Source: Reyranella sp. CPCC 100927 (GTDB taxonomy: Bacteria; Pseudomonadota; Alphaproteobacteria; Reyranellales; Reyranellaceae). From it: a stretch of DNA of 64,000 nt. Made by a program: the position numbers and the translations under genes. The stretch covers positions 62,001-126,000 of the forward strand of contig NZ_VOHA01000017.1 of NCBI RefSeq assembly GCF_007859315.1. The letters run 5' to 3'. Below the pieces are notes generated by a model. The model ran no database searches, was not told the DNA's origin, and was given only the letters and a program-made list of their open reading frames with translations. The first letter of the stretch is position 1; each line of letters starts with the position of its first letter. Shown piece by piece: positions 1,146 to 35,683 of the stretch.

Positions 1146-2804
1146 TCATCCGCGAAACGCATTGGTGATCGGATAGCGGCGGTCGCGTGAGACGGCACGG
1201 CCAGTGATCTTCACGCCCGGCGGGGCCTGTCGCCGCTTGTACTCGGCCATTTCCAGCATGCGCCAGACGCGCTGCACGGTGGCGGGGTCATAGCCTTCCG
1301 CTTCCAGTTCCTCGGTGGCGAGGTCGCGCTCGATGAGACCCTCCAGGATCTTGTCGAGCACATCGTACGGCGGCAGCGTGTCCTGGTCCTTCTGATCGGG
1401 CTTCAGCTCGGCCGACGGCGGCTTGGTGATGATGCGTTCGGGGATGACGCGGCCGCCGGGACCCATCGCCCCTTCCGGGTGCGCCCCGTTGCGCCAGTGC
1501 GAGAGTTCGAAAACGGTCGTCTTGTAGACGTCCTTCAGAGCGTTGTAGCCGCCGCACATGTCGCCATAGAGGGTCGAGTACCCGACCGCCATCTCCGACT
1601 TGTTGCCGGTGGTCACCACCATGTGGCCGAACTTGTTGGAGATGGCCATCAGGGTCAGGCCGCGCGCGCGGGCCTGGATGTTTTCTTCCGTCGTGTCGGC
1701 GGCACGGTTGCCGAACACCGGCTTCAACATGTCGCCGAAGGCTTTCATCGCCGGCTCGATGGAAACGATGTCGTAGCGAACACCCATCGCCTCGGCACAT
1801 TGTGCCGCGTCCTCCAGGCTGTCGCGACTGGTATAGGGCGAGGGCATCATCACCGTGCGCACGCGATCGGCGCCCAGCGCGTCGACGGCCACTGCCGCCG
1901 TCAGCGCCGAATCGATGCCGCCCGACAGCCCGATGATGACACCGGGAAAACGGTTCTTGTTCACATAGTCCCGCAGGCCCAGCACCATCGCCTGGTAGAT
2001 CGATTCCAGGCGCGACAGCGGCGGGTGCATGGTACCGGGTGCGCAATCCCACTTGCCGTCGGCACCGCGGCGCCATGTCGTGGTGATCACCGCTTCGCGG
2101 AAGCTGGGCAGCGCGGCGCGCAGCGTCCGGTCGGCACCGATCACGAACGAGCCGCCGTCGAAGATCAGCTCGTCCTGGCCGCCGACCTGGTTGACGTAGC
2201 AGAACGGCAGGCCGCTCTCGACGACACGCGCCACGCCCAGCTGCACGCGCCGCTCGGTCTTGTCGACCTCATAGGGCGAGCCGTTGGGCACCAGGATCAG
2301 TTCACCGCCCGTCTCGGTGATGCACTCGACGACATCGGGCGTCCACACGTCCTCGCAGATCGGCACGCCGATGCGCACGTCGCGAAAGATCAACGGACCC
2401 GGCATCGGGCCTGGCGCGAACACGCGCTTCTCGTCGAACACACCGTAGTTCGGCAGATCGACCTTGAAGCGCTTGCCGGCGATCTCACCGCGGTCGAGCA
2501 GCAGGACGGCGTTGTGCAGCTTGTCGCCTTCACGCCAGGGTGTGGTGACGAACAGCGCCGGCCCACCGGCGGCGGTGTCGGCACGCAGTTCGTCGATGGC
2601 TTCGTGCAGACGCCGCTGGAATGCCGGCTTGAGCACGAGGTCCTCGGGCGGATAGCCCGACAGTACCAATTCGGAGAACACCACGGCGTCGGCGCCCTGC
2701 TTGGCGGCCTCGGCCCGCGCGGCCCGTACCTTGGCGACGTTGCCGGCAACGTCGCCAACCGTCGGGTTGAGCTGGGCAATGGCGATGTTCAGCGAGTCCG
2801 TCAT
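1146..2804 (-). CDS. nadE: Glutamine-dependent NAD+ synthetase
   Basis: Cytoplasmic last step of NAD synthesis: deamido-NAD + ATP + glutamine to NAD. At 552 residues it has the two-domain form. The N-terminal nitrilase-type glutaminase (about 1-260) carries the catalytic triad Glu45 (FSELVLSG), Lys114 (RFKVDLPNYG) and Cys150 (VPICEDVW). The C-terminal synthetase domain has the ATP loop GLSGGIDSA at about 292-300 and TTGNKSEMAVGYSTLYGD further on. The start is ATG at 2804. It is not in an obvious operon, but nicotinate phosphoribosyltransferase of the same NAD pathway lies about 3.5 kb away. The 3' end faces hisC across a palindromic element. Confidence 0.96.
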   Translation of the reverse strand: MTDSLNIAIAQLNPTVGDVAGNVAKVRAARAEAAKQGADAVVFSELVLSGYPPEDLVLKPAFQRRLHEAIDELRADTAAGGPALFVTTPWREGDKLHNAVLLLDRGEIAGKRFKVDLPNYGVFDEKRVFAPGPMPGPLIFRDVRIGVPICEDVWTPDVVECITETGGELILVPNGSPYEVDKTERRVQLGVARVVESGLPFCYVNQVGGQDELIFDGGSFVIGADRTLRAALPSFREAVITTTWRRGADGKWDCAPGTMHPPLSRLESIYQAMVLGLRDYVNKNRFPGVIIGLSGGIDSALTAAVAVDALGADRVRTVMMPSPYTSRDSLEDAAQCAEAMGVRYDIVSIEPAMKAFGDMLKPVFGNRAADTTEENIQARARGLTLMAISNKFGHMVVTTGNKSEMAVGYSTLYGDMCGGYNALKDVYKTTVFELSHWRNGAHPEGAMGPGGRVIPERIITKPPSAELKPDQKDQDTLPPYDVLDKILEGLIERDLATEELEAEGYDPATVQRVWRMLEMAEYKRRQAPPGVKITGRAVSRDRRYPITNAFRG

Positions 2805-2975: not shown

Positions 2976-4049
2976 TCAGCGGCCGAAGCCCGGCAGATCG
3001 GGCGGCGGATAGTAGGGCCGATCGCCCAGAGCCTTCACGCGAGCCCAGAACTCGGGCCCGCCGGCGTTGCCCACCGCCGCCAGGTCAGCGGCTTGGCGCC
3101 ACATGTTCCAGGAGTCGGGATGCAGCCGGCTGGCCTCGCCAAGATGGCGGACCGCCTCGTCGTCCTTGCCGTGCCGGCGCAGCCAGGTGCCGAGCCGGAA
3201 GTGGGCGTGGGCCAGGGCGATGTCCGGCGTGATCCGCGGCTGCTTGTCGCGGGCGGTATCGGCAGCCAGTGCATGCTTGCCGGTCAGCACCCAGTCCCGC
3301 ACGGCGTCGAGGTAGGTCTTGCGCGCCGCCAGGCGGGCCGCCTGATCCTCCGGCGTCATGGTCCGGGTCGTGAGGTCCATGCGGCGGAAATGGTCGGTGG
3401 AGCCCGCGGTCTCGGCCGGGCGTACGATGCGGCCGGCCTCGTCGATCCACACCGCCTGCGGCACGTTCACCATGCCATAGAGGTCGGCGACGCGATGATC
3501 GGCATCGATCAGGGACCAATAGGTGGGCTTGGCCTGCTCGATCCATTGCCGGGCTTGCTCGGCACCGCGGCTATCCTCGGCGACGGCCACGACCATGAAA
3601 TTGCGGTCCTTGAGATCCTCATACAGTAACTGCCACACGGGCAAGTCGAGACGACAGCCTCACCAACTGGCCCATGTCGTGAGGAACACCTTGCGCCCGC
3701 GCAGCGCCGAAAGCGTGTGCGGCGCGCCGTCGAGGTCAGGCAAGGTGAAATCCGGTGCCTGCAGGTCTGCCAATGCATCGTTGCGCGCATCGGCGCCGAT
3801 CCCCAGCATCCAGGTCTGCCTGGTGTCATCGTGCAGCACCGGGTTACCCAGGCGCTGCCAGAACGCGGCGACATCAACCTGACCGTCGCGCGTCATATCC
3901 GACGGCAAAGGCACGCAGGCATCGTCGCGACACATGCCTTCCGGCTTCAACGTCCAGCCGGTGACCCGCTCGGCATCGCCCGCCGTCAGCCACAGGCCAT
4001 CAACGGCCGAAACGGCATGTTCTTCCACCTCACTCAGTATGGTTACCAT
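2976..4049 (-). CDS. TlpA-like redoxin with in-frame TGA at the redox cysteine, candidate selenoprotein
   Basis: Thiol-disulfide or peroxide-reducing thioredoxin-fold protein of 357 residues if the TGA at 3660-3662 is read as selenocysteine. Start ATG 4047-4049 follows a strong GGGAGG site. Residues 1-80 are an unassigned N-terminal domain; the thioredoxin domain runs from APDFTLPDLDG (about 95) to about 240; a TPR-like helical tail follows (AHAHFRLGTWLRRHGKDDEA). The redox site reads T-W-A-S-W-[TGA]-G-C-R-L-D-L-P-V-W-Q: residue 130 is the TGA where family members carry the first Cys, and Cys132 is the partner. The cis-Pro segment NVPQAVWID is present. Both halves are good protein in one frame. 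No signal peptide is evident. Alternatives are a nonsense mutation or a read error, because TGC (Cys) differs by one base. No Sec machinery gene is in the window. Confidence 0.8.
3630..3662 (-). promoter_or_regulatory. Candidate bacterial SECIS hairpin after the TGA codon
   Basis: In the sense strand the TGA (3662-3660) is followed 16 bases later by the hairpin TTGCC-CGTGT-GGCAG (3644-3630), five pairs including one U-G wobble, with a five-base loop whose second base is G. Known bacterial SECIS elements lie directly downstream of the UGA inside the gene, with the apical loop roughly 16-37 bases away and a G in its first two positions. Here the loop begins 21 bases after the TGA. Short hairpins like this also occur by chance. 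Confidence 0.5.
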
Positions 4050-32968: not shown

Positions 32969-35683
32969 TCAGGCAAAAGCTTTGCTTTTGCCGTGATGCG
33001 AGCCGGTGGCTTGCTCTGCGAGGAGTGCACGCAGTTCTGGCAGGCAAGAACCGCAGTTGGTGCCGGCCCTCAGGCGTTCGCCCAAGGCGCGCGTCGTGCG
33101 GCAGCCGCTCGCGATGGCCAGCTCGATGGCACCACGGTCAACACCGTGGCAGGCGCAGACCACCGGGCCTTGGATGCCTTGCCCAAGACTGCGGCCGGCC
33201 AGGATGGCGCGTCGCTGATCGACGGCGAGCCGCTGATGGTCGAACAGCGCGGCGGGACCACTGCGTGACGGCAAGCCGGTTGCATCGGCTGCGATATAGA
33301 AAGCGAATTGCAAGCGCTCGCCTGCAACCAGGGCAGCGCGAAGACGGCCTGCCGCAGGATCGCGATACTGCAGCCATTCGGCGGAAGACACGGTCGCGGT
33401 CGCCAGCGCCGCCAGCTTTTCCCAGGCAGCGTGCGGCGTTTCAGGGCCGGCCATTTCATAGCACCAGTGATCGGCGCCGCGGACCGCCACCCAGTAGGCA
33501 TGGCCGTCGAGCGCCAGTTTCTGGCGTGACAGCACAAGTCCCTGCCATCGCGCGAGCACCGGACTGACACGCACCGGCGTCGCCTTCAGTTCAGGCTGAC
33601 CCGAGTGTGGATCGGTCTGCGGATTGACCATCTCGTTCACGCGACCGGCGGCGCTCAGCGTGCCGGTCCAGTGCATCGGCGCAAAGACCGTCCCCGGCCG
33701 TTGATCTGTTGTGACGCTGACGCGCAGTGTCGCGGTGCCCCAACGGCTCTCGATCCGTGCCAGGTCACCGTCGACAAGATCGTACCGCGCCGCGTCGTGC
33801 GAATGGATGGCCAGCAGCGGCTCCGGTCGATGCGTCGACAGACGCGCGGCACGGCCGGTGCGTGTCATGGTGTGCCATTGGTCACGATAGCGACCGGTGT
33901 TCAGGATCAGGGGGAACTCGTCTGTCGCAGCGTGGCGTGGCGCACGGGGCGTCACGGCAACGAATCGACCGCGGCCGTCTGGCGTGACGAAGGTGCCGTC
34001 ACCGAACAGGCGTCGCCGCGGCGCATCCTGGTCGGCACGCCACGGCCAATGAAACGGCTCAAGAGCGTCATAGGCCGAGTCCGAAATGTCGGCCACGGCA
34101 CCGATATTGAAGGCGCGCGCACCGTCGTTCTCGAACGCCGAGAGGCGCGCGTGCTCGCGGAAGATGTCGCCCGGGCCACGATAGGCGAACGACTCGGCGA
34201 AGCCCATGCGGCGCGCGACCTCGCTCAGCGCCCACCAATCGGGACGCGCCAGGCCGGGTGCGGGCCGCACCGGACGCTGGCGCGAGATCCGACGTTCGGA
34301 ATTGGTGACGGTGCCATCCTTCTCACCCCAGCCAGCGGCCGGCAGCAATACGTCGGCATGACGCGCCGTATCGGTGTCTCGCACGAAGTCGGAAACGACG
34401 ACGAAATCGCAGGCTTCCAGCGCGCGCGCCACGCGACCGGCATCCGGCAGGCTCACGGCCGGATTGGTCGCCATGATCCAGATGGCCTTGATCTCGCCGG
34501 CCTCGATGGCGCGGAACAAGTCGACCGCCTTGTGGCCACCCGATATCGCCAGGTGCGGCGCATTCCAGAAACGACGGACCCGATCGACGCTCGCGGTGTC
34601 GTCGTAGGTCATATGTGCCGCCAATTGATTGGCCAGCGCCCCGACCTCGCGGCCTCCCATGGCATTGGGCTGGCCGGTGACCGAGAACGGCCCCATGCCC
34701 GCTCGGCCGATGCGCCCCGTCAACAGGTGCGCATTGATGATGGCGTTGACCTTGTCGGTACCGGCGGAAGACTGGTTCACGCCCTGGGAATAGACGGTGA
34801 CGGTCTTTTCGGTTTGCGCGAACAGCGCGAAGAACGCCGCAATATCAGCGCTTGCCAATCCACAGAACCGCGCAACGGTTTCAACATCCGGCATCGTTGC
34901 GCGAGCGGTGGCCAGCGCCTGATCAACGTCTGATGTATGCCGGTTGACGAAGGTTCGATCGGCAGCACCGACGTCATGCAGATGCACGAGCAGGCCGTTG
35001 AACAAGGCCACGTCGCTTCCCGCCACCAGCGGCAGATGCAGGTCGGCGATATCGCAGGTTGCCGTGCGTCGCGGGTCGATAACCACGACCCGCAGCGTCG
35101 GGCGTCGCTCGCGTTCGGCCACGATGCGCTGGAACAGGATGGGATGGCACCAGGCGAGATTGGAGCCGACCAGCACGATGAGATCGGCCTGCTCGAGATC
35201 CTCGTAGACACCGGGCACGGTGTCGCTGCCGAAGGCACGACGATGGCCGGTAACCGACGAGGCCATGCACAGTCGCGAGTTGGTGTCGAGGTGGCGCGAG
35301 CCGATAAACCCTTTCAGCAACTTGTTGGCGACATAGTAGTCCTCGGTCAGAAGCTGCCCCGAAACATAGAAGGCGACGGCGTCCCGGCCGTGCGCGGCGA
35401 TGACCTCCTGGAACCGGCCGGCGACGCGGTCGAGCGTCTCGTCCCAGCCGGCGGGACGCCCGTCGATCTCGGGTGCGAGCAGACGGCCGTCGAGCCCCAG
35501 CGTCTCGCCCAATGCTGACCCCTTGGAGCACAGGCGGCCGAAATTCGCCGGATGCTGCGGATCGCCCACGACCGTGACGCTGCCGTGCTCGTCGGACGTC
35601 GCCAGCAGGCCGCAGCCCACACCGCAGTAGGCGCACGTCGTGCGAACTATCTGCTGACCTCGTGCCACCGGCTGCAGCAACAC
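32969..35683 (-). CDS. nasA: Assimilatory nitrate reductase catalytic subunit
   Basis: Cytoplasmic molybdenum enzyme, nitrate to nitrite, 904 residues. The start is taken as GTG 35683, with GGGGAGG upstream; no signal peptide. The [4Fe-4S] cluster cysteines are Cys17, 20, 24 and 52 (CAYCGVGC, then LCSKG). Cys139 in SRLCMASSV is the likely molybdenum ligand. The C-terminal part has a BFD-like [2Fe-2S] module (CACHGVDRGAIEL, NCGSCLPELR), which in NasA-type enzymes takes electrons. It is the last gene of a run nasS-nrtA-nrtB-nrtD-nasA, 40 bases after nrtD. No nitrite reductase gene is in view. Confidence 0.93.
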   Translation of the reverse strand: MLLQPVARGQQIVRTTCAYCGVGCGLLATSDEHGSVTVVGDPQHPANFGRLCSKGSALGETLGLDGRLLAPEIDGRPAGWDETLDRVAGRFQEVIAAHGRDAVAFYVSGQLLTEDYYVANKLLKGFIGSRHLDTNSRLCMASSVTGHRRAFGSDTVPGVYEDLEQADLIVLVGSNLAWCHPILFQRIVAERERRPTLRVVVIDPRRTATCDIADLHLPLVAGSDVALFNGLLVHLHDVGAADRTFVNRHTSDVDQALATARATMPDVETVARFCGLASADIAAFFALFAQTEKTVTVYSQGVNQSSAGTDKVNAIINAHLLTGRIGRAGMGPFSVTGQPNAMGGREVGALANQLAAHMTYDDTASVDRVRRFWNAPHLAISGGHKAVDLFRAIEAGEIKAIWIMATNPAVSLPDAGRVARALEACDFVVVSDFVRDTDTARHADVLLPAAGWGEKDGTVTNSERRISRQRPVRPAPGLARPDWWALSEVARRMGFAESFAYRGPGDIFREHARLSAFENDGARAFNIGAVADISDSAYDALEPFHWPWRADQDAPRRRLFGDGTFVTPDGRGRFVAVTPRAPRHAATDEFPLILNTGRYRDQWHTMTRTGRAARLSTHRPEPLLAIHSHDAARYDLVDGDLARIESRWGTATLRVSVTTDQRPGTVFAPMHWTGTLSAAGRVNEMVNPQTDPHSGQPELKATPVRVSPVLARWQGLVLSRQKLALDGHAYWVAVRGADHWCYEMAGPETPHAAWEKLAALATATVSSAEWLQYRDPAAGRLRAALVAGERLQFAFYIAADATGLPSRSGPAALFDHQRLAVDQRRAILAGRSLGQGIQGPVVCACHGVDRGAIELAIASGCRTTRALGERLRAGTNCGSCLPELRALLAEQATGSHHGKSKAFA

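Follow-up and report, generated by a model that had tools for sequence, protein, structure and literature searches.

Selenoproteins with a U-G-C motif (U, selenocysteine, Sec) and a peroxiredoxin-like (Prx-like) or TlpA-like character are reported in PMC2398784, PMC9312934, and PMC13188914. The UGC group presented in PMC2398784 (2008) comprised 46 Sec sequences and 855 cysteine (Cys) homologues and was commoner in non-marine samples. More generally, nearly all selenoproteins have Cys counterparts, according to PMC13188914 and PMC9402790. Here, we analyzed a 64,000-nucleotide stretch of the genome of Reyranella sp. CPCC 100927 (contig NZ_VOHA01000017.1; hereafter, the window), the minus strand of which carries a ResA/TlpA-like gene interrupted by one in-frame TGA. 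As judged from sequence, this gene almost certainly encodes a Sec-containing redox protein of the WAxxUGC_long family, because its TGA at codon 130 is kept as TGA among relatives, a hairpin of the selenocysteine insertion sequence (SECIS) type is conserved behind it, and the genome has the full Sec gene set. As far as sequence can tell, the candidate selenoprotein proposed in an earlier note on this DNA is supported.

The protein matched the NCBIfam equivalog model NF041054 (WAxxUGC_long) at 323.7 bits against a cut-off of 300, over residues 22-350 and model positions 9-352 of 354, and it contains the WAxxUGC motif as WASWUGC. The same model was matched by 26/26 members of our wide alignment with an E value of 0.001 or better. 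The gene is a further member of an already catalogued selenoprotein family. The earlier suggestion that the N-terminal domain and the TPR-like tail define a new subfamily found no support, as NF041054 already models both.

The TGA codon and its conservation

When TGA was translated as U, the minus-strand frame 4049..2976 (357 codons) showed the TGA at 3662-3660 as its sole interruption, within the sequence WASW-TGA-GCRLDLPVWQ. The residues beyond U130 number 227 and are followed by the terminal stop, which is likewise TGA (2978-2976). Under translation table 11, the same frame is split into an open reading frame (ORF) of 129 amino acids (3660..4049) and one of 222 amino acids (2976..3644), and the gene is indicated to be intact where standard gene calling yields these two fragments. 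TGA130 aligned with the leading Cys of CxxC in five ResA-type proteins; the active-site motif of the present protein is U-G-C, not UxxC, and is one residue short of CxxC. The description of the locus in the earlier note, namely one TlpA-like frame with a single TGA at the first redox Cys and 227 residues past it, was therefore confirmed.

The Reyranellaceae set consisted of 61 genomes (the host's own and 60 relatives), 37 of them in the family, and all 37 contained a match with one TGA. The TGA was found in the same motif in 40/40 Reyranellaceae copies, one of which is a contig-end fragment. It should be noted that the readout script for this count sought TGA only, and the count rests also on the stop counts of the genome scan, whereas the readouts of the named loci and of the alphaproteobacterial sample described below imposed no TGA requirement. 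A spurious candidate in G018 (L059) and two short pieces that end before the TGA (G017:C124 and G019:C3) were left out of the 40.

For the named loci, a scan of one genome per species found 479 relatives, and the best 80 of the 479 were read out. Codon 130 was TGA in 80/80 of them, and the nearest named relative was Vineibacter terrae (contig NZ_VDUZ01000075.1, 83% identity). By their deposited titles, some of which look misassigned, these best 80 are alpha-, beta-, and gammaproteobacteria, mainly metagenome bins with some isolates. The TGA-bearing isolates include Vineibacter terrae, Desertibaculum subflavum, Reyranella massiliensis, Enhydrobacter aerosaccus, and Quisquiliibacterium transsilvanicum. 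The Reyranellaceae and named-locus sets overlap; their 120 copies reduce to 95 distinct 105-base stretches. We infer that the search should even have favored Cys versions, as one of its two patterns had the Cys form of the motif.

A sample of 385 alphaproteobacterial genomes gave 25 long matches from 22 genomes, all with TGA. The motif pattern fitted 22 of the 25, and the other three, which were read separately, had TGA at the same place. In a phylum sample of 398 genomes, both long matches (2/2) had one TGA; up to five candidates per genome were scored in these two samples. A full-length copy with Cys130 was seen neither among the 40 Reyranellaceae copies nor among the best 80 of the 479 named relatives nor in the 385- and 398-genome samples. 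The TGA-less matches in G107 and G508 consist of the redoxin domain only and were left out of the family counts. Meanwhile, some of the divergent TGA copies (L017 of G032, L162, and L179-L183) read WAPY-TGA-GC or YASW-TGA-GC, and two copies each were found in G004, G011, G032, G513, G540, and G634.

Chance placement of the TGA, which the earlier note had thought improbable, is excluded because codon 130 is TGA throughout the family copies, the named loci, and the class sample. None of the homologues examined had Cys at this codon, and they continue beyond the TGA, so that the truncated relatives envisaged as a counter-case were absent.

Selenocysteine machinery and the RNA hairpin

The host genome (9.08 Mb, 81 contigs) contains a tRNA-Sec (72.9 bits, over the cut-off; anticodon tca by ARAGORN) as well as selA, selB, and selD, each over its profile cut-off; all four components of the Sec machinery that had been suggested as a check were thus found. 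Contig C35 holds tRNA-Sec, selB, and selA together, and selD lies at G000:C39:14980-15882. A tRNA scan of the 64-kb window itself found none. A second tRNA-Sec candidate in the genome (47.7 bits, barely over the cut-off) was rejected, as ARAGORN calls it tRNA-Ser. An FdhE-like protein (a formate dehydrogenase accessory protein, recognized by eye) adjoins selA (L047, 16197-17156).

Approximately 2 kb from selD, the formate dehydrogenase alpha gene (L175, G000:C39:17906-20947) has exactly one internal TGA in the context NQARV-TGA-HGPTV, which we take to be the classical Sec site of this enzyme. Sec thus seems to have a second, textbook role in this genome, with formate dehydrogenase alpha as the second probable selenoprotein. 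In the window, the minus strand at 33572-35647 also carries fragments of a molybdopterin oxidoreductase resembling formate dehydrogenase, with no internal stop.

The presence of selA followed that of the gene. Among the 385 alphaproteobacteria, selA was over the cut-off in 22/22 gene-bearing versus 34/363 gene-less genomes (Fisher p 6e-21, uncorrected for kinship), and in the 61-genome set it was found in 34/37 gene-bearing versus 2/24 gene-less genomes.

The RNAalifold analysis of 89 distinct sequences gave a single 5-bp stem with the 5-nt loop CGUGU, located 20 nt past the UGA. The stem pairs in 380/380 cells over 76 distinct 42-nt sequences, and 22-80% of cells pair when it is shifted by 1-3 columns. 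A two-sided change of a pair from G-C to C-G is present in one distinct sequence of the 76; it occurs in four similar loci of the codon-constraint set and is probably one event. This set was obtained from the 120 copies by leaving out five (two with a short tail, L057 and L083, the former with an early TAG, and three cut by contig ends, L058, L104, and L111) and merging identical sequences among the remaining 115, which left 93. Synonymous constraint peaks at the hairpin, with the top ten of 258 constraint windows beginning at codons -3 to +6 relative to the UGA, and Leu at +6 is TTG in 67/93 sequences versus 11% TTG across these genes. A further bias, AGT for Ser at -2 (3668-3666) in 62/92 sequences, lies upstream of the UGA and is not explained by the apical hairpin. 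The 42-nt sequence of the window folds at -11.8 kcal/mol, and its hairpin, with a 5-nt loop and a 5-bp stem at a spacing of 20, agrees with the bacterial SECIS (bSECIS) rule as given in PMC13188914.

Several observations weigh against the reading as a selenoprotein. A shift of the stem by -3 still leaves 79.5% of cells paired, and 9/500 shuffles match the observed pairing, a modest control because few pairs vary. The hairpin of the window alone has no unusual stability (z -0.74), the version of the bSECIS rule used is permissive (passed by 360/1577 TGAs of the window and by 99/337 other codons of the gene), and an Rfam scan of the window gave no family over its cut-off. Since the rule is permissive and the hairpin not unusually stable, the RNA evidence rests on conservation. 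In addition, three of the 37 gene-bearing Reyranellaceae genomes (G011, G033, and G034, drafts of 140-240 contigs) have the TGA gene without selA over the cut-off, and Sec was entered as Cys in the structure models and profile searches described below.

Protein architecture and possible function

The features of the gene are collected in Table 1. The redoxin fold is supported by the Pfam match together with the structure matches to ResA. C40, C45, U130, and C132 are the only thiol or selenol residues of the protein and are invariant in 26 diverse members, and Pro197 is, by its position, presumably the cis-Pro of the thioredoxin fold. The N-terminal domain alone gave a confident fold prediction and ends ahead of the redoxin domain. 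The TPR-like tail is helical in the predicted model, and its profile aligns with engineered TPR proteins.

Table 1. Coordinates of the candidate selenoprotein gene and its features in the window.
Feature	Position	Strand	Evidence
Candidate selenoprotein gene, 357 codons, TGA130 read as Sec	2976..4049	minus	ATG at 4049, stop TGA 2978-2976; full-length relatives
In-frame TGA, proposed Sec130 codon	3660..3662	minus	TGA in 40/40, 80/80, and 25/25 copies (overlapping sets)
Apical stem-loop of proposed bacterial SECIS	3630..3644	minus	RNAalifold; 380/380 cells pair; codon constraint peak
N-terminal domain, approximately residues 1-95, invariant C40 and C45 (CX4C)	3765..4049	minus	
Cys40 codon	3930..3932	minus	Invariant 26/26
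Cys45 codon	3915..3917	minus	Invariant 26/26
AhpC-TSA/Redoxin (ResA/TlpA-like) domain, residues 97-209	3423..3761	minus	Pfam PF00578, 66 bits (cut-off 26); structure matches to ResA
Cys132 codon, proposed partner of Sec130 in U-G-C	3654..3656	minus	Invariant 23/23 and 26/26
Pro197 codon	3459..3461	minus	Invariant in 23- and 26-member alignments
TPR-like helices, residues 280-323	3081..3212	minus	TPR_14, 21.7 bits (under cut-off 23.5)

ResA, TlpA, and DsbE proteins are exported or membrane-anchored. The hydropathy analysis of the present protein gave a top 19-residue mean of 0.76; because a membrane anchor is not evident, the protein may be cytoplasmic, in contrast to the exported ResA/TlpA.

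With SelB and Sec-tRNA, the ribosome would read UGA130 as Sec, and the selenolate of Sec130 would attack its substrate, a disulfide or a peroxide. Cys132 would then resolve the intermediate by forming a selenenyl sulfide within U-G-C, the invariant C40/C45 pair would exchange electrons with this site in a relay-like manner, and partner proteins may dock on the helical tail. This specific catalytic and relay scheme is put forward tentatively. A peroxidase is a possible, though not the favored, alternative for the function: Sec130 would reduce peroxides as in a peroxiredoxin and be recycled by Cys132 and C40/C45, whereas by both sequence and structure the protein is best matched by disulfide oxidoreductases of the ResA/DsbE/TlpA type. 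The gene points to a selenoenzyme, the hosts of which include cultured isolates.

It is conceivable, if rather doubtful, that the family is Sec-obligate, i.e., that the three-part protein is never found with Cys and that its U-G-C site, together with a CX4C N-terminal domain having no known relatives, does chemistry beyond the reach of Cys. As nearly all selenoproteins have Cys counterparts, such a family would offer a natural test of the reason for keeping Sec. That the relatives examined showed no Cys form (TGA in 80/80 of the best 80 of 479 and in 25/25) could make this retention testable.

A quite different reading takes the TGA as a regulated stop that, at scarce selenium, yields the 129-residue N-terminal product alone, with a role of its own. 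The confident prediction of a separate fold ending ahead of the redoxin domain speaks for it, but 18/18 listed matches to the N-terminal domain coincide by coordinates with long-protein loci, and no stand-alone domain was seen among these 18 matches in 279 genomes (up to 18 candidates scored per genome); we consider it very improbable. The idea that UGA is decoded as Trp or some other residue, through suppression or an altered code, draws on the open frame beyond the TGA and has next to no likelihood, since the gene's own terminator is TGA, as in some other family copies, the codon column is the position of a redox Cys, selA tracks the gene, and the host genome has tRNA-Sec. Equally negligible is a TGC to TGA sequencing error or a strain-specific nonsense mutation (a pseudogene), the main alternative of the earlier note, which takes only one base but is contradicted by the same TGA in the best 80 of 479 from many assemblies, isolates included, and by the conserved downstream half. 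The conservation of the TGA and the presence of the Sec genes led us to reject read error, pseudogene, and Trp read-through alike.

Gene neighborhood and comparison with known systems

ORFs around the best 80 of 479 loci and in the window were clustered, and the 14 largest clusters of ORFs outside the gene were compared. The nearer loci have common neighbors, in up to approximately 44 loci; no cluster joins more than two of the 23 farthest loci (L117-L139), and no family-wide neighbor was found. At an E value of 1e-15, the protein had no match among 72,556 plasmid records. A perfect 12-bp inverted repeat at 2931-2963 (arms 2931-2942 and 2952-2963, 9-nt loop) lies between the selenoprotein gene and the next minus-strand gene (ORF 1146..2804, NAD synthetase-like by eye) and is possibly a terminator or attenuator; a T run is not evident.

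Our literature search of main texts found no paper using "WAxxUGC" and nothing on selenoproteins in Reyranella, the papers listed for the latter concerning other subjects by their titles. The UGC-containing Prx-like and TlpA-like selenoproteins have the UGC motif in common with the present protein and are assigned to pfam00578 (PMC2398784, PMC9312934) or cd02966 (PMC13188914). They are likely the same group as this family. The PMC2398784 group, as described there, has its 855 Cys homologues, whereas none was seen here for the full-length architecture.

The closest catalogued relative is NF041054 itself (ResA-like WAxxUGC motif-containing protein), which shares the UGC motif, the N-terminal domain, and the tail. 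The difference is one of score: 4/40 Reyranellaceae copies exceed 300 bits, 35 reach approximately 271-298, and the contig-end fragment reaches 179; the top scorer, at 486 bits, is the second, divergent copy of G032. The cut-off lies just above most Reyranellaceae scores, and automatic annotation may split, drop, or miss many of these genes. Compared with ResA, TlpA, and DsbE, of which the five aligned proteins have CxxC, the present protein differs in its UGC, in the additional domains at either end, and in the lack of an evident anchor. With U-G-C in place of CxxC, it is classed as ResA-like and not as ResA.
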